From positions 1 to 64,000 of the forward strand of contig DAIDHS010000010.1 of the NCBI GenBank assembly GCA_027451985.1: a DNA stretch of 64,000 bases, written 5' to 3'. Both the position numbers and the translations under genes were made by a program. Position 1 is the first letter of the stretch. The number at the start of each line of letters is the position of its first letter. Positions 1 to 12,062 of this stretch are shown here, one piece after another. The stretch comes from Elusimicrobiota bacterium. GTDB lineage: Bacteria; Elusimicrobiota; Elusimicrobia; UBA1565; UBA9628. Below the pieces are notes generated by a model. That model saw only the letters and a list, made by a program, of their open reading frames with translations, did not search any database and was not told the DNA's origin.

Positions 1-577
1 ACTTGAGGCTCTTGAGCCGGTCGTAATCCGGGTATTGGGAGTTCTCGGAGCCTTCTTCGATAGAGGTGTCGTCGAGATTGGAGATTGCTTCGCCGTTGAT
101 GGAACGGGCCCAGTCGATGGCGGGAGCCTGGATGCCGTCGAGGTAATCGAACTGGACGTTGGCGGCCGATTCTTTGTCCCGTTCGCGCAGGACCAGCTGG
201 ATGTTGTGCTGCGCGCAGACAGCGCGGCCGTCGCTATCAATGTCGCAGGATTTTTGCTCGAGGTAGATGAGGGATCCATCGTCCGGATAATCGGAGGGCG
301 CGGCGGGGGACTTCAGCGCCGCCTTGAGAATCGGATCGGCGATGTCCGCCGCGGTTTTTTCACCCGGGACGCCGAAGACGTGGACCAGCTTGACCTTAAG
401 CACCTGGGAGAGGGGGTAAGAGGTCTCGCGGCCGTCCGCCCTCAAGACGACGGCGGCCGAATCGATGCGGATCACGTCGCCGGAGATTTCTGCGCCGGCA
501 TTGGTGAAGACGATGTCAGCATGTACCAGGCCTGGGGCGAGCGCGGCCAGAATTGCCGCGAGAGCGAGCTTTTTCAT
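1..577 (-). CDS. Secreted DUF3857-like protein (3' end outside window)
   Basis: The reading frame is open from an ATG at 577 to the window edge, about 192 codons, so its C-terminus is not seen. The N-terminus (MKKLALAAIL..., ending near VHA) is a clear signal peptide, so the product is exported. The segment after about residue 100, with charged beta-rich sequence such as IQLVLRERDKE and a region around SNLEDTSIEEGSE, resembles the beta-sandwich found in DUF3857 proteins. Its start overlaps the stop of the transglutaminase-like gene just upstream (ATGA), so the two are translationally coupled and probably act together in the periplasm. Substrate unknown. The DUF3857 assignment is an inference from the pattern and the neighbour. 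Confidence 0.6.
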   Translation of the reverse strand, partial: MKKLALAAILAALAPGLVHADIVFTNAGAEISGDVIRIDSAAVVLRADGRETSYPLSQVLKVKLVHVFGVPGEKTAADIADPILKAALKSPAAPSDYPDDGSLIYLEQKSCDIDSDGRAVCAQHNIQLVLRERDKESAANVQFDYLDGIQAPAIDWARSINGEAISNLDDTSIEEGSENSQYPDYDRLKSLK

Positions 578-2664
578 GCGCCCTCCTTCTTGAGAAAGAC
601 GCGCTCGCGCGTCAAATGGGAGACCTGGTCGAGGAATTTCTTGTGGGCCTGGTACTCCGAGGCGGGGTAAATCAGCTGGGCGCGCTTGAAGTCGGCCTCG
701 CAGTTGAGGCGGCGGCCGCGCGCCTTGCAGTCCAGCGAAAAAGACTCGCCCGGGCCTTTGACCCGGACGGACTTGGGCGCGGATTCGACGCGAAAGCCGG
801 CGGGCAGGCTGATCGCGTAATGGTAGCGTTTTTCCTCAGGCTCATGGTATTCGATGGCGTAAAGGCGTTTGACCAGGGAAACTTCCGGGAAATCCATCTC
901 GAAGTTCGGAAGCTTGAGGATGTAGAGGTCGCCCGCGCGGATGAGGTAGTCCGGAAGGCGGCAGCTCCAGCCGAGCAGGAAAGGTTTGGCGATGTCCTCG
1001 GCGTTCTTCGCCTCGTAGGAGGTCAGGACGGCCGAGGGGCTGATGGCGGAGACCTGCTCCTCGAAGCTGGCCTTCAAATCGCTGGCCTTCAAGCTCTTGT
1101 AGTAGCCGCGCAGTTCGGCCTCGTGCGTGCCGTCGTAACGGGCGGAGAAATCGACCGTCGCGTCGGCGTCCGAGCTCACGGCGACGCCGTACTCGTAGAC
1201 GCTGGCGTTCTGCGAAGGCTTGGGCGTGGGCACGCGGATGATCTTGCGGCCGAAGACGTCTAACACCTTCACGCCGTAGTCCATGGCCGGAATCTGGGGG
1301 TAGCGGAAGTCCTCGCCCACGGAGTCGAGAAACATGCCGCGGCCGTCCAGCGTCACGTGGGTGATGGCATGCTCGAAATCGATGCCGGGAACCTGAAAAT
1401 CATGGACGGCGCTGTAGTTGGTGTCGAGCAGGACAGGAGTCGAACGCACGCCGATGACGCGCAGCATCGTGGTCAGAAGCAGGGCTTTGTCGATGCAGCA
1501 GCCGTAACGCCGCTTCCACGTGAGGTTGGCGTCGTAGCCGCCCCAGCCGGAGGCGACGCCCATCTTGACCGCGATGTAGCGCACGCGCTTCTGGACGTAG
1601 CGGTAGATCGCGGCGACCTTGGCCTGCTGGGTCGGTTCATCCTTGACGAGATTTAGGGTGAACTTCTTAAGCTCGGGGCTGGGCTTGGTCCGCGCATCGT
1701 ACATCTTGGCCAGCCAGGAATAGATGCGGCCCCAGCGGTCGAAGAGGGAGGCCTTGACGTATGGCGAGATGTCCTCGTATTGGACCATCCGCGGCTCGCT
1801 GATGATGGGCGGCAGGTTGCGCAGGCGCCATTCGTAGGTTGTGCGGCCGTGGGCCTTCGTAACGATGGGCTTGGCCAGGCTTTTCCATTTCCCGGAGAAA
1901 TTGCGTGCAGAATAATACAAGGTGCGCCCCTGGGGCACGGAAATGCGCAGGGCCGACTCTTTGACCGGAACCCAGTCCTGGAATCCCCAGTTGGGGAAAA
2001 AGAAGTCCTTGCGGAACGGGTTGTAGGTTTCGGTTTCAACTTCCCATTCGATAATGGATCCGACCTCAAGCTGGGGGAGCTGGTAAGAGGCGACCCGGTA
2101 GTCCTGGAAAAACAACGATTCGGCTTGCGGGCTGGTGACTCGGATTTTGGAGCGATCCAAGGGATAAACTCGTCCGTCCGGCTCGTAGACCGTCGCCTTC
2201 AGGATGTTCACGCGGCTGCGGCCGTCTTCGAAAGAGCCCGAGACCTGCCCCCAGGAGCTTTCCAGCCCTTCCTTTAATATCTGGCCGATGAAGAGTTGGC
2301 GCTCCACGCGCGTGCCGTCGGGCCGGAGAACGATGTCGTCGTCCTCGGCCAGAGCCGCGCCGTCGACGCCGGGATAATTCTTCTCGAACGCCGCGGCTTG
2401 GCGGAAAAGTTCTGTTCCGCGCGCGGCCAGAGCCGGGTTCGCCGCCGCGGAAGCCTGTTCGGGGAGGGCGGCTTGGGCGAAGCGGATCTCCTCAACGGCC
2501 TCGCGCGGCAGGACTTTGCCGTCCGGGAGGATGACGCCGGCTTTGTCAACGAGAACGGGGGAAGCGTTTTTTTCTCCGCCCGCGCGCAACTTCAAGACGG
2601 CCGCGGACGATACGGCAGAAAAACTCAAAATGACGGCGATGACGGCGGACAGGACTCGGGGCAT
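574..2664 (-). CDS. DUF3857 / transglutaminase-like secreted protein
   Basis: This 696-residue exported protein has a signal peptide (MPRVLSAVIAVIL...SSA), a beta-rich DUF3857 region at roughly residues 50-320, and a transglutaminase-like cysteine-protease fold near 350-450. The triad is visible: Cys in YGCCIDKALLL (about 387), His in FEHAITHV (about 431) and Asp in LDSVGEDF (about 446). A C-terminal beta domain follows. The ATG at 2664 is preferred over an upstream in-frame start because GGGAGG lies just before it and the signal peptide begins there. It is coupled by ATGA to the next gene downstream. Proteins of this architecture are common in diderms, but their substrates are mostly unknown. 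Confidence 0.85.
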   Translation of the reverse strand: MPRVLSAVIAVILSFSAVSSAAVLKLRAGGEKNASPVLVDKAGVILPDGKVLPREAVEEIRFAQAALPEQASAAANPALAARGTELFRQAAAFEKNYPGVDGAALAEDDDIVLRPDGTRVERQLFIGQILKEGLESSWGQVSGSFEDGRSRVNILKATVYEPDGRVYPLDRSKIRVTSPQAESLFFQDYRVASYQLPQLEVGSIIEWEVETETYNPFRKDFFFPNWGFQDWVPVKESALRISVPQGRTLYYSARNFSGKWKSLAKPIVTKAHGRTTYEWRLRNLPPIISEPRMVQYEDISPYVKASLFDRWGRIYSWLAKMYDARTKPSPELKKFTLNLVKDEPTQQAKVAAIYRYVQKRVRYIAVKMGVASGWGGYDANLTWKRRYGCCIDKALLLTTMLRVIGVRSTPVLLDTNYSAVHDFQVPGIDFEHAITHVTLDGRGMFLDSVGEDFRYPQIPAMDYGVKVLDVFGRKIIRVPTPKPSQNASVYEYGVAVSSDADATVDFSARYDGTHEAELRGYYKSLKASDLKASFEEQVSAISPSAVLTSYEAKNAEDIAKPFLLGWSCRLPDYLIRAGDLYILKLPNFEMDFPEVSLVKRLYAIEYHEPEEKRYHYAISLPAGFRVESAPKSVRVKGPGESFSLDCKARGRRLNCEADFKRAQLIYPASEYQAHKKFLDQVSHLTRERVFLKKEGA

Positions 2665-2756
2665 CAAAACCTCCCGAAAAGTGTGCTGTCCGCACGATAG
2701 CATACTCTTGCTTGAGGCGCAACCAAAGCGGCGCTGGACGCCGGGATTTTCGACAC

Positions 2757-2772: not shown

Positions 2773-2814
2773 TAAATAAAAAGGCGTATGCCGGATTCCG
2801 AATGCGGAGGTGCT

Positions 2815-3219
2815 ATGGCGGAGAAATTCTCAGTCATCATGTTCAGCGGAACGGCCGATAAATTCATCCCGCTGGGAGTCTTGACGCAGGCAGCGGCGGC
2901 CATGGAGATGGAGGTCAGCGTCTTTGTAACGGGTTTCGCTTTGGGGGCTTTCGCAAAAAAACACATGGAGCCTCCGTTTCCCGCCGAATTCGCGGCCATG
3001 GCCCCGGCGTTGGCAAAAGGGCTCAAGGCGGCCAAGGTTCCTTCTTGGGAGGAAATGCTGCGCCAAGCGAAGGATCTGGGCGCCAAGGTTTATGCCTGCT
3101 CCATGATGAGCGAGGTCATGGGGCTGAAGAAGAGCGATTTCAGCGACTTGGTCGATGATGTGGTGGGGGCCGCCACATTTTTGGAGAAGGCTGAAAACGG
3201 GCAAACCATCTTTATCTGA
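2815..3219 (+). CDS. DsrE-family (DsrE2-like) sulfur-carrier protein
   Basis: This 134-residue cytoplasmic protein has the Rossmann-like DsrE/F fold pattern: an N-terminal strand KFSVIMFSGTAD, a glycine-poor helix, and a conserved late cysteine in VYACSMMSEVMG (about residue 94), the likely persulfide carrier. DsrE2-type proteins pass sulfane sulfur to TusA-like partners. Here a TusA-like gene follows three bases after the stop and a flavoprotein follows that, the usual context for this family. The start at 2815 was chosen because GGAGG lies 5-6 bases upstream; the longer frame from 2788 lacks this. A sigma-54-type promoter precedes the gene. Confidence 0.8.
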   Translation: MAEKFSVIMFSGTADKFIPLGVLTQAAAAMEMEVSVFVTGFALGAFAKKHMEPPFPAEFAAMAPALAKGLKAAKVPSWEEMLRQAKDLGAKVYACSMMSEVMGLKKSDFSDLVDDVVGAATFLEKAENGQTIFI

Positions 3220-3222
3220 GCT

Positions 3223-3468
3223 ATGGACGCCGGAGCAACGCGCCGCAGGGTGGTCGACGCCAGAGATAAGTCTTGCCCCGGGCCGATCACGGACTTGGCT
3301 TTGGCCTATAGGCGCTCCAAGATCGGCGACGTTATAGAGCTGTGGGCGACTGATCCGGGCGTGCGGGCCGACGTGCGCGCCTGGGCCGCCAAAACGGGAA
3401 ACGAACTTGTTTCCCTGGAAGACAAAAGCGGCGCCATCGTGAGCGTGTTGCGTATACTAAGGAGATGA
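3223..3468 (+). CDS. tusA: TusA/SirA-like sulfurtransferase
   Basis: This 81-residue protein has the TusA fold signature: the CPGP motif with the sulfur-accepting Cys18, followed by an amphipathic helix (DLALAYRRSK) and a strand with GDVIELWATDPG. TusA-like proteins relay persulfide sulfur between enzymes. It sits between the DsrE-like gene and the FAD oxidoreductase with gaps of only a few bases, so the three are one transcription unit for sulfide or sulfane-sulfur handling rather than tRNA thiolation. The name is by family; a stand-alone biosynthetic role is not excluded. Confidence 0.85.
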   Translation: MDAGATRRRVVDARDKSCPGPITDLALAYRRSKIGDVIELWATDPGVRADVRAWAAKTGNELVSLEDKSGAIVSVLRILRR

Positions 3469-3469
3469 T

Positions 3470-4669
3470 ATGGGCGGTGTGCTGATTCTGGGCGGCGGCA
3501 CGGGCGGAACGTTGCTCGCCAACATGCTCGCGCGCCGCGGCATTGAGATTACCGTGGTCAGCGAGTCGCCGGAGCACCTCTTCCAGCCGGCCCTCCTCTA
3601 CATCGCCCTGGCCGGCGCTGGCGCGGACATCGTCCGGGACGAGCGCGCTCTGCTCGCCAAGCGCGTTCGGTTCGCACGGGAGCGGATTGTGCGGGTGAAT
3701 CTCGCCGCCCATCGGGCAGAGGCCGCCTCCGGGGCTCGTTTCGATTATGACTCCTTGGTTGTGGCTACCGGTGCGCGGGCGGAACCGGCGCAGATCCCCG
3801 GCCTAGCAGAAATCGCGGAGCGCTACGGCAACTACCACTCCGGAATAACCGCGGCGCAAAAACTTTGGAAGGCCCTCGACTCCTTTCGCGGCGGCACCGT
3901 GGCCGTGGGTCAGGCTTCTCCGATCTGCGTGTGCCCGCCGTCGCCGGTCGAGGGCGTTCTGCTCATCGACAAGCTTCTGCGCCGAAGGTGGCTTAGAAGC
4001 AAGTCTCGCCTGATTTTCTTCACACCTTTTCCGCGCACATATCCGGCCGAACCGATTAATGAAATTGTGGAACCGCTTCTCAAAGCCCGCGGCATTGAAG
4101 TTAAGACTTTTTTCGACGTGGACCGCGTGGAACCGGCGTCCCGCACCATTTTTTCCATCGAGGGCGAGCGCATCGACTGCGACCTGCCCATCATCGTTCC
4201 GCCCGTTTGCGGCGCGGACGTCGCTTACGAGCCGGACGGCGCGCTCAACGCCGATCGTTTCATCGCAGTCGACAAGAAGACGCTGCGCATCAAGGATACA
4301 GACTCCGCCTACGCCATCGGCGATGCCACGGATCTGCCGACCTCGAAGGCCGGCGCGGGCGCCCATCTTCAGGCGAAGACGGTTTTCAGGGAGCTGATGG
4401 GGGAGCCGGCGGAATTCAACGGCCGCACGCATTGCGCCTTCGATCTCGGAAACGGCACGGGAACTTTCGTCATCAGCTCCTACTCCGCTCCGGCCGTGCG
4501 GTACCCACCGACGCGCATCAAGCGCCTCATGAAGATGCTTATGGGCCGCGTTTACTGGCTGAGCCTCAGCGGGCTTTTCGAGACGATTTTCAACTGGTAC
4601 TTTTCCTGGACCGCGCCTGAGCGTCTCGCGGCGCGTTGGCCTAGGTTTTGGAGGCGCGCAAATCGATGA
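3470..4669 (+). CDS. FAD-dependent oxidoreductase, sulfide:quinone reductase-like
   Basis: This 399-residue protein opens with a dinucleotide-binding motif (LILGGGTGGTLLAN, residues 5-18) and has a second nucleotide segment with VVATGARAEP, typical of the SQR/NDH-2 family. Cysteines near 152 and 154 (SPICVCPPSP), 246 (PPVCGAD) and 321 could form the redox disulfide or polysulfide site of SQRs. The C-terminal 50 residues are hydrophobic and amphipathic (LSGLFETIFNWYFSW), fitting monotopic membrane attachment. AAGGAG precedes the start. With DsrE and TusA upstream it probably oxidises sulfide or persulfide and feeds electrons to the quinone pool. Its 3' end overlaps the convergent ligase gene by 29 bases. 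Confidence 0.75.
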   Translation: MGGVLILGGGTGGTLLANMLARRGIEITVVSESPEHLFQPALLYIALAGAGADIVRDERALLAKRVRFARERIVRVNLAAHRAEAASGARFDYDSLVVATGARAEPAQIPGLAEIAERYGNYHSGITAAQKLWKALDSFRGGTVAVGQASPICVCPPSPVEGVLLIDKLLRRRWLRSKSRLIFFTPFPRTYPAEPINEIVEPLLKARGIEVKTFFDVDRVEPASRTIFSIEGERIDCDLPIIVPPVCGADVAYEPDGALNADRFIAVDKKTLRIKDTDSAYAIGDATDLPTSKAGAGAHLQAKTVFRELMGEPAEFNGRTHCAFDLGNGTGTFVISSYSAPAVRYPPTRIKRLMKMLMGRVYWLSLSGLFETIFNWYFSWTAPERLAARWPRFWRRANR

Positions 4670-5921
4670 TGCGCCGCAGCTTGCCCGTGCGGGGGTTGGT
4701 TTCCAGTTCTCCGGGCGCGCGCCACTCCACCCGAAGCGGGTGGATTTTGTCTTCCCCAACGAAGCGCCGCAGCATGGGCTGGCGGATGTGGAGGGCTTGG
4801 ACGATGCGGCGTTCGAGCGGTTTCCTTTCTTTCGGCGGGACGCGGGCGGCGACGCGCAGGGCTAATCCGTCTTTGCCGCCGCGGTGTTCCATGACCATCT
4901 GCAGCTGGATGGGGCCTGACCGTGGCAGGGACTCCCTGACCGTCTTGAAGGCCTCATCGAAGCCCACGGACAGGGAGGCGACGCGGGCAGAGTCTTCCGA
5001 GCGTCCAAGAAGCCGGTACTTGCGGTTGGACGCTCCTTTAGGCTCAATCCACATCGCCCGATCGCCCACGGGATAGCGGATAATCGGCATCAACCGCCGC
5101 GTTAGGGAGGTGACGAACGCGAGCCCCTCGCGGCCGGGCTCGGCAAGGGGATCACCCGTCTTTTCGTCCAAGATTTCATAGACGGAATGCCCATCGCAAG
5201 AGCGAAACTCGTTGGGCCCGCAGCCGGGGTCCGCGTAACCCAGCATTCCCGCGTCGTTGCTCGCGTAGCCGATGGAGCGGATGCGGGCTTTAGGGAAGGC
5301 CGCATGGGCCTGAAGGCGCTGATCGGGTTGCATGGGTTCGCCCGCAAAAAGGATGAGCCTTATCTTGGGCAGGCAAAGCCCGCGAGTTTTGAGGAGTCCG
5401 GCCAGGGCCGAGATCGTGCTCGGCAGCCCCGCGAGCACGCTAGCTTCGTGCTCTTTGAGGAGGGAAATCGTGTCGGGCGGCGGCGTCGTGCCCGTGATGG
5501 GCAGTTGGAGCGTACGCACGGGGCATTCCTCAAGCACTTTGTGGGTGAAGAGGAACGAGCCGTAGAGGGCCCCTGAATAGAAGAGGTTTGCGACACGATC
5601 GCCGTTCCGAAGACCGCTCAAGGCCAGCTTGCGGGCGAAGTAGGCGGAAAATTCGTTCCATTCGTCGCGGGAGAAGACGGAAAATTTCGGCTTTCCGGTC
5701 GTCCCGCCGCTGCGCAGCAGAATGCCGTCCCTGATGGGTCCGGTCAGGAGCCGGTTGCCGCGGTAGGAATTGGCCCGCCAGAAGTTTTCTTGGCGTACGG
5801 CGGGGAGGGACACAAGCGAATCGATTTTTTGCGGAAGGCCGCGGTAAAGTTGGCGGTAAAACGGGGAGCGCTTGCGCGCGAAGGCGATGAGCGCCGCAGC
5901 GGTCTTGCCTGGGTGTGCCAT
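4641..5921 (-). CDS. PaaK-like acyl-adenylate-forming ligase
   Basis: This 426-residue enzyme is of the ANL superfamily, closest in pattern to phenylacetate-CoA ligases. It has the phosphate-binding loop RSGGTTGKPKFS (about residue 71), the SIGYASNDAGMLGY region and the RYPVGDRA motif that contacts AMP. It should activate a carboxylic acid as acyl-AMP. It is the last gene of the luxE/luxC-type operon and starts one base inside the stop of the preceding fusion gene (TGATG). It resembles the ligase half of that fusion, so the operon encodes two paralogous ligases. Substrate unknown. Confidence 0.75.
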   Translation of the reverse strand: MAHPGKTAAALIAFARKRSPFYRQLYRGLPQKIDSLVSLPAVRQENFWRANSYRGNRLLTGPIRDGILLRSGGTTGKPKFSVFSRDEWNEFSAYFARKLALSGLRNGDRVANLFYSGALYGSFLFTHKVLEECPVRTLQLPITGTTPPPDTISLLKEHEASVLAGLPSTISALAGLLKTRGLCLPKIRLILFAGEPMQPDQRLQAHAAFPKARIRSIGYASNDAGMLGYADPGCGPNEFRSCDGHSVYEILDEKTGDPLAEPGREGLAFVTSLTRRLMPIIRYPVGDRAMWIEPKGASNRKYRLLGRSEDSARVASLSVGFDEAFKTVRESLPRSGPIQLQMVMEHRGGKDGLALRVAARVPPKERKPLERRIVQALHIRQPMLRRFVGEDKIHPLRVEWRAPGELETNPRTGKLRRIIDLRASKT

Positions 5922-8443
5922 CAGCGTTTGCGCTCGTCGATCACGCGCAGCAGTTTTCCGCTGGCGGCACTGCGCTTAAAGCCGGCGCCGGGCGTTTCTT
6001 CGGCGCCAAAAAGCAGGGTCTTATCATTCAAGACTACTTCCGCCAGATCTCTGTAATGCTCGAGGCAGGACTTCACGCACTGGGCGGCGCTCAGGCCGGC
6101 GCCCTTGGAGACGCGCAGCAGAATTTTTTCTCGGCGGTTTTCCTCGCGCAGACAGATTTGCAGCTCTCCCGCGTACCCGGCGTGGGTCGAAAGGATTTGC
6201 GCGAATTTCTGGTAGTTGAAGAAGGCCGTCCCGATTCGAAAAATGTCACCGACGCGGCCCAGGAGCTTGAAGCGGGGGGAAAGCCGCCCGCAGGGACAGG
6301 GTTCTCCGGGCTTGCCCAGCACCCAATGGCCCATGTCGCCGATGGCGTAGCGCGGAGGCTTGCCGGACCCGGGCTCGCGCGGCGAGAACACCAAGCGCCC
6401 GACTTCTTCGCCCGAGACCGGACGGTCCTCATCGAGTTTTAGGATCTCAAGATGATGGAGTCTTTGCTGCAAATGGTGCACGCCGTCGGCGCAGCGCCCG
6501 CACTGGAATCCCATTGGGCCGATGTCAACGCTGCCGTAGGCCGCGGAGCGGATGAGGCCTACGCCGAAGCGCTCCATCAGGCGCCGCCGCTGGGCTTCGG
6601 TGAAGTGCTCGCCGCCGTAGAAAATCTTCGCTACGCCGCGGTAGCGCCCGAGCAGCGCGGCGTTCTCCTCGAAGAGATTCATGAGGTAGGAAGGCATGCC
6701 CAGAAGCGCGTTGACCTTGTAATCGACGATGGCCTGCGCGACCATCTTGAGATCTTGATGGGCGGCCATGGGAAACTGGGCAACGCGCAGCCGCTCCAAG
6801 GCGGAAAAGATGCTGATGAAGCCCCCATAAAGCCCGCCGCAAAAGAACAGGTTCATGACACGATCCTTCTCCGGGTCGAGTCCGGCGGCGTAGAGCCCTT
6901 GCGCCCCGAAGAGCATGTCATCGTCGTATTGGTCGTAGGTGAAGGTCGAAAGCTTGGGCTTGCCAGTGCTGCCTCCACTCTTGAAGAACAGTCGCGCTTG
7001 CGGATTCTCAGAGGAAAACTTTTCCTTGGCAGTAATCTTGGGGAGAGACGGCCAGGGCGGAGGCGGGTAAAGGGTCAGCTCGTCGAAAGCGGAAATGCCT
7101 CGGCTCGGTACGGGCGTCTGCGCAGAGACGCGGCGGCAATAGCGCTGCAAGGCATAGAGCCCGTCGTGGGGCTCGCCGGAGTAGCTGCCAGTCATCGTGC
7201 CTAAGCGGCGCACTCGAGTCGCGCCGGCCGAAATCAGCCGCTGATTCAGCTCATAGACGTCCGCGGCGCCGCAAGCGAGGCCGACGGTCTGCAAATAGGC
7301 TTTCATCGGGCGCAGGACCCGGACGATGTCTTGCCGCGGCAATGGCTTGACCCAAACGGTGCGGTAAAGCGGCGAGGGCGTCAGCGCGGGCCGGGCATCG
7401 GCCAGGACGCGCCAAGCGCCGTCTTGAGCGGCAAGGACCCGGGCCTTTCCGAGGCAGGACTCCAGCTCCTGGCACTGCGCGACCATGCTGATTTCGGCCG
7501 CGGCCGCGTCGTCTGGCGCAAGGCGCGGCATGGTCTTGGAGACGCGGGCCAAAGTCCCGGCTAAATTCTCGGCCAACCGATTTGCGGCGCCCCATTCTGC
7601 CGCATCGACATAGACGCATTGCGGACTGGAGCAGGAGAGCTGCTCCAGACGGCAGCACTCTCTCGCTACCTCGTCAAGCGTTTCGGAACGGGAAGCGGAC
7701 TCTTTAGAAAGGTAGATGAAGGAAATGCGGTGTCCCCACTCGACGATGCGCGCGCTTGCGGGCGCCATTGTCCGGATGGAGGCGATGGCGCTCTCGCCGC
7801 CCCATGCCGCGATGCCGTCGGCGGCGGCAAAAACTTTGGACAGCAGGTCCCGCCGCTTCGACGGGATGCACGCGGCAATGAGATAGTTGTTGAGGGCGCC
7901 CGAGGAGTCGTTGCGCGCAAGAGCCTCCAGCAGGATTTGCGCGAAGCCGCAGTCGTCCGCTCCGGTTTTGACGAAATTGACGTTTCCCGACAGCAGCCCT
8001 TCGACCGCGCTCATGGCTCCGGTAGCGAAGGAGTTTTGCGGCGAGACGTGGACTAGGAGCCCCAGCGGCGCCCAGGCCTCGAAGAGATCGTCCTGGTAGG
8101 AGACGCGATTGAGCAGGAAAGGGCGCTTGGATCCCAGTTCGCGCTTCAGTTTGGCTTCGAGCGCCTCGCGTCCCAACATACCCGCGATTTCGGACAAGGC
8201 TGGCGCGATGTCCGTCCGGCGCGCCGCGCCGGACATCAGGAGCGTTTCTTCCAGCCGCCGGCGCAGCGGGGAGCGTTTGTCTAAAAGGGCCAGCGCCGTT
8301 TTGCCGCACGCGTCTAAGACCGCGGCGGTCGCCGCGGGTTCCGAGGGGATTGAGAGCGCGCCCAGGGCGGCGACGCGCTTTTCCAGTTCCTCGTCGTTGA
8401 TCCACTCGCCGCGCCAAAAGTGGGGCTTCATGCCGCGCGTCAT
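5921..8443 (-). CDS. Fused LuxC-type acyl reductase and PaaK-like ligase
   Basis: This 840-residue protein joins two enzymes. Residues about 1-445 match LuxC acyl-CoA/acyl-protein reductases: an aldehyde-dehydrogenase-like fold with the acyl-accepting Cys in EQLSCSSPQC (about 269), and an NADPH-site segment around VHVSPQNSFATGAM. Residues about 460-840 form an adenylating ligase with P-loop KSGGSTGKPKLS (about 486), SAAYGSVDIG, YAIGDMG and a CPCG knuckle. The ATG at 8443 overlaps the luxE stop (ATGA); the longer frame from 8551 has no such support. It would reduce an activated acyl group to an aldehyde. The fusion suggests substrate channelling between activation and reduction. Confidence 0.8.
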   Translation of the reverse strand: MTRGMKPHFWRGEWINDEELEKRVAALGALSIPSEPAATAAVLDACGKTALALLDKRSPLRRRLEETLLMSGAARRTDIAPALSEIAGMLGREALEAKLKRELGSKRPFLLNRVSYQDDLFEAWAPLGLLVHVSPQNSFATGAMSAVEGLLSGNVNFVKTGADDCGFAQILLEALARNDSSGALNNYLIAACIPSKRRDLLSKVFAAADGIAAWGGESAIASIRTMAPASARIVEWGHRISFIYLSKESASRSETLDEVARECCRLEQLSCSSPQCVYVDAAEWGAANRLAENLAGTLARVSKTMPRLAPDDAAAAEISMVAQCQELESCLGKARVLAAQDGAWRVLADARPALTPSPLYRTVWVKPLPRQDIVRVLRPMKAYLQTVGLACGAADVYELNQRLISAGATRVRRLGTMTGSYSGEPHDGLYALQRYCRRVSAQTPVPSRGISAFDELTLYPPPPWPSLPKITAKEKFSSENPQARLFFKSGGSTGKPKLSTFTYDQYDDDMLFGAQGLYAAGLDPEKDRVMNLFFCGGLYGGFISIFSALERLRVAQFPMAAHQDLKMVAQAIVDYKVNALLGMPSYLMNLFEENAALLGRYRGVAKIFYGGEHFTEAQRRRLMERFGVGLIRSAAYGSVDIGPMGFQCGRCADGVHHLQQRLHHLEILKLDEDRPVSGEEVGRLVFSPREPGSGKPPRYAIGDMGHWVLGKPGEPCPCGRLSPRFKLLGRVGDIFRIGTAFFNYQKFAQILSTHAGYAGELQICLREENRREKILLRVSKGAGLSAAQCVKSCLEHYRDLAEVVLNDKTLLFGAEETPGAGFKRSAASGKLLRVIDERKR

Positions 8444-9609
8444 CGTCCGGATCCCAAAAGTTCGGCGGCCGCCAGCGCGCAGCTTTTGTTCTTGGATGTG
8501 CCGGCGCGTCCATGCACGACGAAGTACGGGCTCGTGATGCCGCAGCCGCATCCGGCGCCGGGATGGAGGGAAGCCAAGTCGCCCATCAGGACGCTGTGCG
8601 CAGGGATGGAGGTGAGAAACGGGGTCAAGAATTGCAGGAAGCCCGGCTTGCCCATGCCCAAGGGCTCCAAGCTTCGCACGTCACGGATGACGGCCTGCGA
8701 CCAGACGGGGACGTGAAAATGGTGTCGGGAGCATTCCGCGTAGGGGATTGGGTGCTCGACCGCGCCAAAGCTGTCGCGGATGCGGGCTTGCGGGATACCT
8801 AAAAGCTCTTCCGTAAGGGCATAGAGCTCCTCCTTGGGCACGGCCTCATCGGCGTGGCCCTTCCATCCGCCGCCCAGGAACGCAAGAGACTTGGGAGAAA
8901 GGCGGAGGCCTTTGATTTTAAGATCGCGCATGCGCTTTAAGGTGAAGAACAGAAAAGCGGGAAATCCAAAAATGCGCACCGGTAGTCCTTGGGCCTCGTA
9001 GTGCTGCAGGCTGCGGATGCAGCCGAAGACGTCGAACTCGTGCGACCCCGTCCCGGTCCGACGCAGCGCGTGGAAGACGCCCTTGACCGGAGCGTACTTG
9101 CAGAGATAGTTGTCGGTGTAGGCGGTGCCTAGGGATGATTCGAGCTCGGTTTCATAGCTGTAGAGCAGATAGTTCGTCTTGGTTTCAGGCGCCACGAAGC
9201 CGAAATACTCGAAGACCCGGTCGACCATGCGCTGCCCTGCTGAGAACGACCAGCGGTCGAAGAATATCTGGGATTTCTGTCCGGTGGTACCCGAAGACGT
9301 GAAATGCGCGAAAACTTCGCCTCTTGGGATGGAAAGGAGCTCGTGCGTCTTGAAGATATTCGCGGGAATGAAGGGAAGGCGGGCGCAATCCGCAAGGGTT
9401 CGGACCGAGCCCGGAGCGAACCCGCGCAGCTTGAGGAGGCGGCGATAAAACTCGGAGCGCTTCGCGTGCCAGCGCGCGCACTCGCTCATGGCTTTGGCGA
9501 AAAGCTCTCCGTGGCCGGCCGCAAACGAATAGGGGTCGGCCAAGTCCGCGACGGCCTGCACCGCCGCGAGCGCTTTGGGATCGGGAACGCGGGGCTGCGC
9601 GGGTTTCAC
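8440..9609 (-). CDS. luxE: LuxE-type acyl-protein synthetase
   Basis: This 389-residue protein matches LuxE, which adenylates a fatty acid and transfers it to its own C-terminal cysteine before reduction by LuxC. Seen here: the adenylation loop SSGTTGQKSQ (about 106), DSFGAVEHPIPY, MGDLASLHPGAGCGCG, and a cysteine 13 residues from the end (SKNKSCALAAAEL, Cys377), where LuxE carries its acyl group. I place the start at GTG 9609 because it overlaps the MFS stop as GTGA, like the other joints of this operon; a longer frame would begin at 9672. No luxA/luxB lies nearby, so light emission is not implied. Confidence 0.85.
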   Translation of the reverse strand: MKPAQPRVPDPKALAAVQAVADLADPYSFAAGHGELFAKAMSECARWHAKRSEFYRRLLKLRGFAPGSVRTLADCARLPFIPANIFKTHELLSIPRGEVFAHFTSSGTTGQKSQIFFDRWSFSAGQRMVDRVFEYFGFVAPETKTNYLLYSYETELESSLGTAYTDNYLCKYAPVKGVFHALRRTGTGSHEFDVFGCIRSLQHYEAQGLPVRIFGFPAFLFFTLKRMRDLKIKGLRLSPKSLAFLGGGWKGHADEAVPKEELYALTEELLGIPQARIRDSFGAVEHPIPYAECSRHHFHVPVWSQAVIRDVRSLEPLGMGKPGFLQFLTPFLTSIPAHSVLMGDLASLHPGAGCGCGITSPYFVVHGRAGTSKNKSCALAAAELLGSGR

Positions 9610-10808
9610 GCGGCGCGCACTCCGGGATAAAAAGAGGTCATGCCTGCCAACGCCAGCAGAACGCAGGCGCAAGCCAGAGCCAGCTTCCCTAAATTCGCAC
9701 TTTCGATGAGGCCGCCCATGAAGGCCATGGAAACGGGAATGGCGCCGACGCTGATGAGATTGACCCAGCCCATGACCGCGGGTACGTCCTCTTCCAGCGG
9801 TCGGGCTTGGAACAAGGTCAGGAGAGTGACGTTTAAGACTGAAAGCGCGGCGCCCAGCGCCAAAAGCGCCATGCAGGCGAGGGCGGGGGTTCGGTTGAGG
9901 GCGAAAATCAGATACATGAGCGAAATGGAGAACAGGCTTGCGATAATCCGAGTTCCCGCTTTCCCATGCGCGCTCAGGAGCGAAAGGACGAGGCTGCCGC
10001 TGGCCATACCCAAGCCCAGCGAGGTTTCCATCGCGGAGAGAGTTCCGATGCCGCCGTTGAAGCGATATTTGGCGAAGAGCGGCAAGAACGCAAGGATGGG
10101 AGTGAAGGCCATGTTCATGAGGGAAAAAGCGGCCAGAAGAAAGCGCACGAGCCCGTCTTCCTTAAACGGGATACGGGGTTTCACCTCATCGTCGGCCGCG
10201 GAGACGGGGGATTTCTTCGGGTTTGGGGCCGAAGCTGCCTTTATCCGCGACTCCAGAAACGCGGCCAGGAGGTAGCTTGCCGCGTTGGCGAGAAAAAGCC
10301 CACCCAAGCCGAGCCAGGGGTAGAGCGAGGCGGCTGCGATTGGTCCCGCGATATTGCCCATGGAAAAACAGGAGTCGACCATGGCGGTCAACTGGCCCAG
10401 AAGACCTTCTTTCGAGCGCGGTAGGCTCGCGGGCAAGGACATGATCGCGGGATTGAAGAGCGCGGAGGCGCAGTTCGCCAAGAAAGTGACGCAGAATAGA
10501 ACCGCCATTTTGGGCCAGAGAGCCCAGGCCGCCCCGGCGGCGGCGTAGACTAGGGCGCGCGCCACGTCCGTTGCGACTACGGTCTTGAGGGCACCCAGCT
10601 TTCCAATCCATTTTGCGGCTGGGCGGGAGAAAAGGAGATGGGGCAGCGCGCCCGCAGCCAAAAACCAGGGGACCAGGCGCAAGGAGCCCAGGCTCGCGAT
10701 GACCCAGACTAAGCCTACCGTCATCATCTTGTCGCAGATTTGCGAGATGGCTTGTCCGGAAAATATTTTGGCGGCGTCGGCGTCCTGGAAGACTGTGAGG
10801 GAAAACAT
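9606..10808 (-). CDS. MFS transporter (EntS/MFS_3-like)
   Basis: This 400-residue protein has about twelve hydrophobic helices and the MFS_3-type layout of small-molecule exporters, beginning FQDADAAKIFSGQAIS. There is a soluble loop near residues 195-215 (KAASAPNPKKSPVS). It starts three bases after the GNAT-like gene stops and overlaps luxE by GTGA, so it belongs to the lux-type operon. The likely role is export of the operon's product, or of a related metabolite. A similar but separate MFS_3 gene lies at 45805-47043. Confidence 0.75.
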   Translation of the reverse strand: MFSLTVFQDADAAKIFSGQAISQICDKMMTVGLVWVIASLGSLRLVPWFLAAGALPHLLFSRPAAKWIGKLGALKTVVATDVARALVYAAAGAAWALWPKMAVLFCVTFLANCASALFNPAIMSLPASLPRSKEGLLGQLTAMVDSCFSMGNIAGPIAAASLYPWLGLGGLFLANAASYLLAAFLESRIKAASAPNPKKSPVSAADDEVKPRIPFKEDGLVRFLLAAFSLMNMAFTPILAFLPLFAKYRFNGGIGTLSAMETSLGLGMASGSLVLSLLSAHGKAGTRIIASLFSISLMYLIFALNRTPALACMALLALGAALSVLNVTLLTLFQARPLEEDVPAVMGWVNLISVGAIPVSMAFMGGLIESANLGKLALACACVLLALAGMTSFYPGVRAA

Positions 10809-10811
10809 CCG

Positions 10812-11969
10812 TCAATCCATCAAGTTTGGGCCTAGGAAGATGTCCCGCCAGTTTCGGTAGTACTCGCGAAGAAACTTCTTGTTTGTTCCGGCCAGCTGGG
10901 CGCCTTGGAAATCGAGGATTTCGAAGGTTTTGCTCAGGACCGCGTAGTCGTAGCGCATTTTATCATGAAGCTGGAAGGCGGGAAAATAAGCGCAGGGAAC
11001 GAAGCGGGCCTGGAGGATGCCTTCGACGGTCTTGAGCTTGTCCGCACGCGCAATAGTCTCGATGTAGCGCACGCCGCGGCGGTGCAGGAGCTCGGAGGCC
11101 TTGGACAGTACCTGGGCGAAGAGGATGTCGTCCGGCTTGTGGATGCCGACCAAAGTGCAGTATTGATCGGCGGGCGCCAGGAAGGCGAAAATTTCGACCT
11201 TGCGGCACGGCGAGGCGATGATGATGTTGGGCTGATGAAAAGGGTAGAAATGAAAGGGGATTTTTCGATCCTCCTGAAGGTTGCGGAAACGGTGCAAAGT
11301 AAAGAGGGGCGCGTCGATGATTTCCAGCGCGGGGATTTTGGCCGGAGTTGTTTGGGAAACGGAATATTCGGAAGGTTTGGCGATGGGAATCTTGGGGATG
11401 CCGATTTCGCTTCGGACAATGTCGACTAAGCCCGCGAACTTGGGGTGCAACTTGAAGTCGGTGAAGCGCTGGGCAAGCGAGCCATCGAAGAAAAAGGCGG
11501 TCAGGCAGTGGGTTTCATAAGCGTCGGTGCGGTGGATGTTGGGAAAGATGCCCAACTTCTTGTAGCCCAGCTTTTCCGCGACAATTTGCGGCGCCTGACT
11601 CGTGGTTCTGGTGGTCGCGTAGATGACGTCCACGCCGCCTTTGCCGGCCCGCAGGCGTTGGGCACCGAACGTCATGGATTTTTCAAGGAGGTCGGCGCCG
11701 CGGTGCTCCGGAAGGACGACTCCGCCGAAGACCTTGGCGATCCGGTTACGCTCGTCTGTCTCCCACGCGACCGAACCGACGATGGAACCATTCCTCTCCG
11801 CGACCACCCAGACGTTGGCGGGTTCGGAGAGAAAGGCCGTGAGCAGTCCTACGTCCCGCATGAGGGGATCGGTATAGGTTCCGTTGTAGACCCGGTGGTA
11901 GAGGAGCGTAATTTCAAGCGCGTCCTCCGGCGTCGCCAGGCGGATGCGGTATTCCGTCGTCTTAGCCAT
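10812..11969 (-). CDS. GNAT-like acyltransferase, probably with two GNAT domains
   Basis: This 385-residue cytoplasmic protein starts with a GNAT fold: YRIRLATPEDALEI, then VGSVAWETD and the acetyl-CoA loop region VVLPEHRGADLLEKSM near residue 90-100. The second half (residues about 200-385) has another acyltransferase-like pattern with EIFAFLAPADQYC and LLHRRGVRYIETIA, so a tandem arrangement is likely. It is the first gene of the operon ending at 4641. Such an enzyme could acylate an amine to make or modify the operon's product. The second domain is an inference. The gene is divergent from the ABC transporter at 12063, and the gap has no clear promoter. Confidence 0.6.
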   Translation of the reverse strand: MAKTTEYRIRLATPEDALEITLLYHRVYNGTYTDPLMRDVGLLTAFLSEPANVWVVAERNGSIVGSVAWETDERNRIAKVFGGVVLPEHRGADLLEKSMTFGAQRLRAGKGGVDVIYATTRTTSQAPQIVAEKLGYKKLGIFPNIHRTDAYETHCLTAFFFDGSLAQRFTDFKLHPKFAGLVDIVRSEIGIPKIPIAKPSEYSVSQTTPAKIPALEIIDAPLFTLHRFRNLQEDRKIPFHFYPFHQPNIIIASPCRKVEIFAFLAPADQYCTLVGIHKPDDILFAQVLSKASELLHRRGVRYIETIARADKLKTVEGILQARFVPCAYFPAFQLHDKMRYDYAVLSKTFEILDFQGAQLAGTNKKFLREYYRNWRDIFLGPNLMD

Positions 11970-12062
11970 GCAAGTGCAATTGTAATAAATAAGGCGGGAA
12001 AGCGGCCTTGACGGGGATCAACGCCCGCGAAATTTGCCAAAATCGAAAGCGATCGGCTGTTT

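Follow-up and report, generated by a model that had tools for sequence, protein, structure and literature searches.

The stretch of DNA analyzed here (the window; 64,000 nucleotides of contig C10, from a 2.4-Mb Elusimicrobiota genome) carries on its minus strand, from 11969 to 4641, five open reading frames (ORFs) arranged head to tail that encode a GNAT acyltransferase, an MFS exporter, LuxE, a LuxC-PaaK fusion and a stand-alone PaaK-like ligase. These genes very probably form an operon of the leupeptin type, whose exported product, a small N-acylated peptide aldehyde, is most likely leupeptin or a close analogue and would inhibit serine and cysteine proteases. Leupeptin (acetyl-Leu-Leu-argininal) belongs to the small peptide aldehydes and acts by blocking proteases. 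The original prediction had labelled the five genes in the same way, and Pfam and NCBIfam searches of the window ORFs agree with those labels. It had also taken the cluster to be biosynthetic, yielding a small aldehyde for export rather than light, and in this it is supported; no luxA, luxB or luxD was found among the flanking genes examined, through the ORF list with Pfam and NCBIfam.

Correspondence with the leupeptin operon

Leupeptin became the candidate product because the distribution of relatives suggested it. A scan with an alignment of the fusion against 84,980 species genomes gave 360 relatives, the best 80 of which were kept. At the top stand three Elusimicrobial-type loci, followed by full-length fusions of 42-47% identity from Streptomyces and its kin and from a Bdellovibrionales metagenome-assembled genome (MAG), and then, at 38-41%, those of Pedobacter, Photorhabdus, Xenorhabdus, Klebsiella michiganensis, Pseudomonas, Chromobacterium, Iodobacter and others. 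For Gammaproteobacteria taken together, the full-length matches span 37-41%. Among these best 80 of 360, the order PaaK-MFS-GNAT-LuxE-fusion occurs at 41 actinobacterial loci and the order MFS-LuxE-fusion-PaaK-GNAT at nine, comprising eight proteobacterial loci and one (G023) from the window's own family; the PaaK label in such counts is trustworthy only for these two patterns, as a PaaK query picks up the fused domain too. Because all five parts recur together in these 41 and 9 loci, the five-gene set is far beyond chance. The same genes are named by independent annotation on one Streptomyces plasmid and one Salmonella plasmid.

The leupABCD genes and a transporter were reportedly identified by Li et al. 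in 2020 as the leupeptin operon of K. michiganensis, Photorhabdus and Xenorhabdus. Published leupAB primers for K. michiganensis give a 1,235-bp product (PMC8283571), and leupA_f and leupB_r match the locus of K. michiganensis DSM 25444 (L114) with 0 mismatches at 7708-7728 and 8942-8923, a span of 1,235 bp. At this locus leupA_f falls within the LuxE gene and leupB_r within the LuxC-PaaK gene, with PaaK and GNAT following and the MFS gene preceding, a layout that matches the published cluster of four genes with an adjoining transporter. The primer positions thus show leupA to be LuxE and leupB to be LuxC-PaaK, while leupC and leupD are assigned to PaaK and GNAT because of the gene order. In the window LuxE, the LuxC-PaaK fusion, a separate PaaK, a GNAT and an adjoining transporter likewise stand in one cluster. 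The original prediction falls in one respect, in that the homologues do belong to a known pathway, with LuxE, LuxC-PaaK, PaaK and GNAT corresponding to leupA, leupB, leupC and leupD and the MFS gene to the adjoining transporter. The window therefore probably holds an operon of the known leupeptin pathway kind, with leupeptin or a close relative as the probable product. No literature report of a leup operon in Elusimicrobiota was found.

Two further organisms connect this gene set to leupeptin. Xenorhabdus bovienii makes leupeptin without a nonribosomal peptide synthetase (NRPS), using separate AMP-dependent ligases and a reductase (PMC11212599), and its locus (L106) has the same gene set. Streptomyces roseus ATCC 31245 is a leupeptin producer (PMC10548850) in which the full five-gene operon is present. 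Compared with the window, the S. roseus operon has the same five parts, with identities of 54% for LuxE, 44% for LuxC, 49% for the fused PaaK and 42% for PaaK, but together with 40 further actinobacterial loci it follows the order PaaK-MFS-GNAT-LuxE-LuxC/PaaK, and its MFS and GNAT are only 25% and 29% identical. The Gammaproteobacterial leup operons share with the window all five parts, the order from LuxE through the fusion to PaaK and the same clades; they differ in being approximately 36-52% identical, in having the GNAT last rather than first, and in using another GNAT subfamily.

Catalytic residues, clades and the proposed route

The residues for adenylation, acyl transfer and reduction, as catalytic cysteines and ATP loops, are intact in the window (Table 1). 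LuxE aligns with PDB 7xc6_E, and its ATP loop SSGTTGQKS and C377 are kept in 21 relatives (alignment A2); it is predicted to activate a peptide acid and carry it on this cysteine. The structural model of the fusion has LuxC 7xc6_A, from the LuxC-LuxE complex, as its best match and PaaK structures next, and the fused ligase domain conserves the SGGSTGKPK loop and the lysine of a C-terminal SGKL. The closest solved structures to the stand-alone ligase are PaaK ligases. The MFS exporter is 41-46% identical to the MFS gene adjoining LuxE in two genomes (G023 and G019). No NRPS condensation, carrier or terminal-reductase domain was found by Pfam and NCBIfam in the five proteins.

Profile searches with the window GNAT match amino-group N-acetyltransferases, and its model (pLDDT 87.9) resembles the ArsN and phosphinothricin N-acetyltransferases, with full-length matches to tandem GNATs including histidine acetyltransferase 9emd. 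The ArsN and phosphinothricin enzymes acetylate the amino groups of amino-acid analogues. The likeness therefore fits N-acylation of a free amino acid, and the window GNAT is predicted to N-acylate the first amino acid.

Table 1. Positions within the window of the operon genes, their domains, two predicted catalytic codons and the gap preceding the first gene
Feature	Position	Strand	Basis
GNAT acyltransferase, 385 aa, tandem-GNAT layout, leupD counterpart	10812..11969	-	Acetyltransf_1, E=2.6e-5
MFS exporter, 400 aa, counterpart of transporter beside leupABCD	9606..10808	-	MFS_1 1.3e-19, TIGR00900
LuxE, 389 aa, GTG start, leupA counterpart	8440..9609	-	PF04443, E=7.1e-32
Codon of LuxE C377, predicted acyl-carrier cysteine	8479..8481	-	Invariant A2 column; matches conserved C-terminal cysteine of 7xc6 LuxE
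LuxC-PaaK fusion, 840 aa, leupB counterpart, acyl reductase and AMP-forming ligase	5921..8443	-	PF05893 and PaaK-like AMP-binding domain in one ORF
LuxC reductase domain of fusion	7133..8323	-	PF05893, 305 bits, E=4.7e-90
Codon of LuxC catalytic cysteine C271 (fusion)	7631..7633	-	Invariant in A1 (19 rows) and A5 (24 rows); motif QxxCSSPQ
PaaK-like ligase domain of fusion	5930..6994	-	NF041878/TIGR02155
Stand-alone PaaK-like ligase, 426 aa, leupC counterpart	4641..5921	-	NF045666, TIGR02155
Intergenic gap, 93 bp	11970..12062	.	Between first gene (GNAT) and divergent ABC transporter gene

Phylogenetic trees place the window proteins with the leup operons. In the LuxE tree the window lies inside a 30-row clade with the Streptomyces and Gammaproteobacteria operons (support 100/100); it falls in the corresponding leup clade of the fused-PaaK tree (29 rows, support 100) and in a leup-type clade of the stand-alone PaaK tree (28 rows, SH-aLRT 100). 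One-ligase and extended cassettes of other Elusimicrobiota are split from the leup clade by long, fully supported branches in the LuxE tree and both ligase trees. Positions invariant in Streptomyces and Gammaproteobacteria and rare in one-ligase cassettes were taken as clade-specific. The window keeps 17/25 of these in LuxE, 18/23 in LuxC, 19/22 in the fused ligase and 12/14 in the stand-alone ligase; three extended Elusimicrobial cassettes keep 7/25, 5/23, 8-9/22 and 5/14, respectively.

In the leupeptin pathway, the most fitting role for the PaaK-like proteins is to form peptide bonds and for the GNAT to cap the N-terminus, with reduction coming last. In such a route the GNAT would use acetyl-CoA to acylate amino acid 1, which in leupeptin is Leu, as a fold that supports an amino-acid N-acetyltransferase suggests. 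The stand-alone PaaK and the C-terminal ligase of the fusion would then adenylate the acyl-amino acid and subsequently the acyl-dipeptide, adding amino acids 2 and 3; separate AMP-dependent ligases are published for Xenorhabdus, and we infer which ligase would take which step. LuxE would adenylate the finished peptide acid and load it on C377, from which it would pass to C271 of LuxC for reduction to the aldehyde, a step suggested by the conserved catalytic residues and the LuxC-LuxE complex, and the MFS protein would export the product. This product is best read as acyl-aa1-aa2-aa3-al, with the residues and N-terminal cap in this organism predicted only as a class; its function as a protease inhibitor is expected because of that class. 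The chemistry in the original prediction is thereby retained as far as acid activation, transfer to the LuxE cysteine and reduction by LuxC are concerned. Its other elements, amination of the aldehyde and a substrate acid left undefined, find no support.

The LuxE and LuxC chemistry is shared with luxCDABE (LuxC-LuxE complex, PDB 7xc6), but the window is without luciferase or LuxD, has LuxC fused to a ligase, and is predicted to act on a peptide rather than a fatty acid. Small peptide-aldehyde protease inhibitors are also the product class of NRPS systems (antipain, chymostatin) and of livipeptin (PMC10548850), in contrast to which the window uses stand-alone AMP ligases, without an NRPS or a tRNA-dependent transferase. 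For what was an unknown "lux-like" operon in an uncultured bacterium there is now a prediction open to testing, namely a protease inhibitor of the leupeptin type, and the non-NRPS route described in Gammaproteobacteria is extended to further phyla, Elusimicrobiota among them. As a clean marker, the LuxC-PaaK fusion can serve to find further clusters, and the differing ligase and GNAT layouts form a natural series in which to study what sets peptide length and capping.

Weighing the product assignment

Several points weigh against a leupeptin-type product. The product is predicted from the genes, and each LuxE, reductase or ligase protein is only approximately 36-56% identical to those of characterized operons, with the GNAT and MFS lower. 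The window GNAT occupies its own long branch, apart from the Streptomyces GNATs, and Gammaproteobacterial leupD is of another GNAT subfamily, the likeness lying mainly in the N-terminal GNAT domain; the window protein is thus outside the leupD subfamily, with the GNAT fold common to both, and given this divergence the product could have a different first residue or N-terminal cap. The Streptomyces GNATs are likewise outside the Gammaproteobacterial leupD subfamily, and because the known operons themselves differ in GNAT, we did not treat this subfamily as defining leup membership. The order of the enzymes is inferred from secondary statements and general knowledge of the enzyme families. Streptomyces leupeptin has been ascribed to an NRPS (PMC10548850), and the link between genes and product in S. 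roseus is one of association. No contig of the S. roseus genome with an NRPS condensation domain also gives a PF07993 reductase match, a result that favors the operon over an NRPS as the leupeptin source, though it is no proof.

There is nearly an even chance that the same chemistry leads to another product, which would be a sub-case of the leupeptin-type reading: an N-acyl tripeptide aldehyde that differs from leupeptin in its residues or its acyl cap and serves against other proteases or in signalling, for instance as a pyrazinone precursor. The ligases are 36-50% identical to their relatives, the GNAT is unlike both known types, several leup-specific positions are altered in the window, and known leup operons already yield leupeptin, lysine and homoarginine variants, and pyrazinones (PMC11480411). 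Set against this, both ligases keep most of their clade-specific positions. A fatty- or aryl-aldehyde pathway like LuxCE or GriC/GriD, in which the GNAT and ligases form amides or esters, comes near the view of the original prediction. LuxE and LuxC are homologous to fatty-acid reductase subunits, and in Streptomyces griseus the reduction of an aryl acid is the joint work of GriC and GriD (PMC10179220), but this pathway appears very improbable for proteins that lie within the leup clade and a gene set that, with its LuxC-PaaK fusion, equals leupABCD. A decaying or silent acquired operon without a product would account for the patchy occurrence, the operon being absent from the one other genome searched in the genus and from most of the family's genomes; five open ORFs, tight joints, conserved catalytic residues and a base composition like the surroundings make it very improbable.

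Other known systems were also compared and set aside. LuxC-LuxE clusters of the fatty-aldehyde and of the flagellin/polysaccharide kind (PMC4522980, Dickeya) differ in gene content, while the GriC/GriD aryl acid reductase, likened by its description in PMC10179220, serves as a precedent only.

Locus layout and related cassettes

Overlapping joints, claimed by the original prediction, are found at three of the four joints when read from the sequence: GTGA at MFS/LuxE, ATGA at LuxE/LuxC and TGATG at LuxC-PaaK/PaaK. At GNAT/MFS a TGA stop is separated from the ATG start by a 3-base gap. Because the joints support them, the LuxE start at 9609 (GTG) and the fusion start at 8443 (ATG) were chosen over longer ORFs. 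The operon promoter should, by position only, lie within the intergenic gap of Table 1, where a sigma-70-like promoter scan passed no site; an Rfam scan of the window gave no match. The GC content of the operon resembles its surroundings, so that base composition gives no sign of horizontal acquisition. The end of PaaK, the last gene of the operon, overlaps by 29 bases the end of a convergent oxidoreductase gene. Adjoining and convergent with the operon, at 2788-4669 (plus strand), DsrE-like, TusA-like and sulfide:quinone-reductase-like genes in a row form a sulfur metabolism unit, the sulfide:quinone-reductase label coming from a match below its curated cut-off. Also near the operon, at 574-2703 (minus strand), is a gene for a protein with DUF3857 and a transglutaminase core.

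The LuxC-PaaK fusion recurs among 57 genomes, consisting of the one that holds the window and its near relatives, where neighborhood genes were called by codon usage, since longest-ORF calling gives false shadow genes in GC-rich DNA. Three layouts occur. The window type with two ligases is also present in G023, and split over two places in G019 and G026 (L033, L034, L145, L146), where LuxC-PaaK, PaaK and GNAT stand together and LuxE is elsewhere, beside MFS in G019. A LuxE-free variant considered for these two genomes was discarded, as a whole-genome search located LuxE elsewhere (65% identity) and the operon is split, not reduced. The second layout is a one-ligase cassette with tight joints, GNAT-LuxE-LuxC/PaaK (e.g., L036-L039, L045, L052 and L053). 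The third is extended, with a papain-like secreted protein, PaaK, a HATPase-GNAT-like protein, LuxE, LuxC/PaaK, MFS and one or two GNATs (L040, L047, L050, L177 and L178).

In these extended clusters (L040:10672-12204, L048:17216-18268, L050:944-2020, L177:5243-6262) the papain-like protein is signal-peptide-like, and its conserved C, H and D residues follow a papain/protein-glutaminase-like pattern; its match to Gln_deamidase_2 is weak and below cut-off. It could be a target of, or a resistance factor for, the peptide aldehyde. Between PaaK and LuxE, an RsbW-like HATPase is fused to a GNAT (L050:3438-4922, L132:2292-3686, L177:7622-9175); the Pfam matches are clear in L132, and the GNAT part is closely related to Gammaproteobacterial leupD. 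Among more distant loci, a leup-type operon (acyl-protein synthase, AMP-binding fusion, PaaK and GNAT) is carried by Salmonella enterica plasmids CP054717.1 (L179), typed as conjugative IncF, and CP053580.1. On the Streptomyces plasmid NZ_CP108162.1 (L180), three peptidase inhibitor family I36 genes (10241-11608) lie directly downstream of the five-gene operon, so that protease inhibitors are grouped together.

One-ligase cassettes, found in MAGs of other Elusimicrobiota, Riflebacteria and Armatimonadota, share with the window GNAT, LuxE, LuxC-PaaK, tight joints and the catalytic cysteines, but are without a second ligase and without MFS at the locus, lie outside the leup clade and are approximately 30-40% identical. 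Across the phylum 121/341 genomes match the fusion profile, weak single-domain matches included. Family f14, of the same class, accounts for 54 matching genomes, nearly all with a full-length fusion, so that the cassette appears near-universal against a total of approximately 59 searched, itself estimated from genome numbering. Eighteen loci with a full-length fusion were inspected (16 from f14 and two from f12; L159-L176, e.g., L161:5539-10570), and all are one-ligase cassettes, complete unless a contig end cuts the GNAT. Many f14 loci occupy a common site, with an NHL/TPR-repeat gene upstream and an M29 peptidase gene downstream.

The one-ligase cassette in f14 looks like a core function, and we regard it as more novel than the window operon; the three-gene version may make dipeptide aldehydes. 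It is conceivable, if rather doubtful, that leupeptin-type assembly is an old, modular non-NRPS route to peptide aldehydes, with the number of ligases setting peptide length, the f14 cassette making N-acyl-dipeptide aldehydes as a vertically inherited core function and the window representing a tripeptide, exported form. If true, the f14 dipeptide aldehydes might, for example, control the cell's own proteases or signalling.

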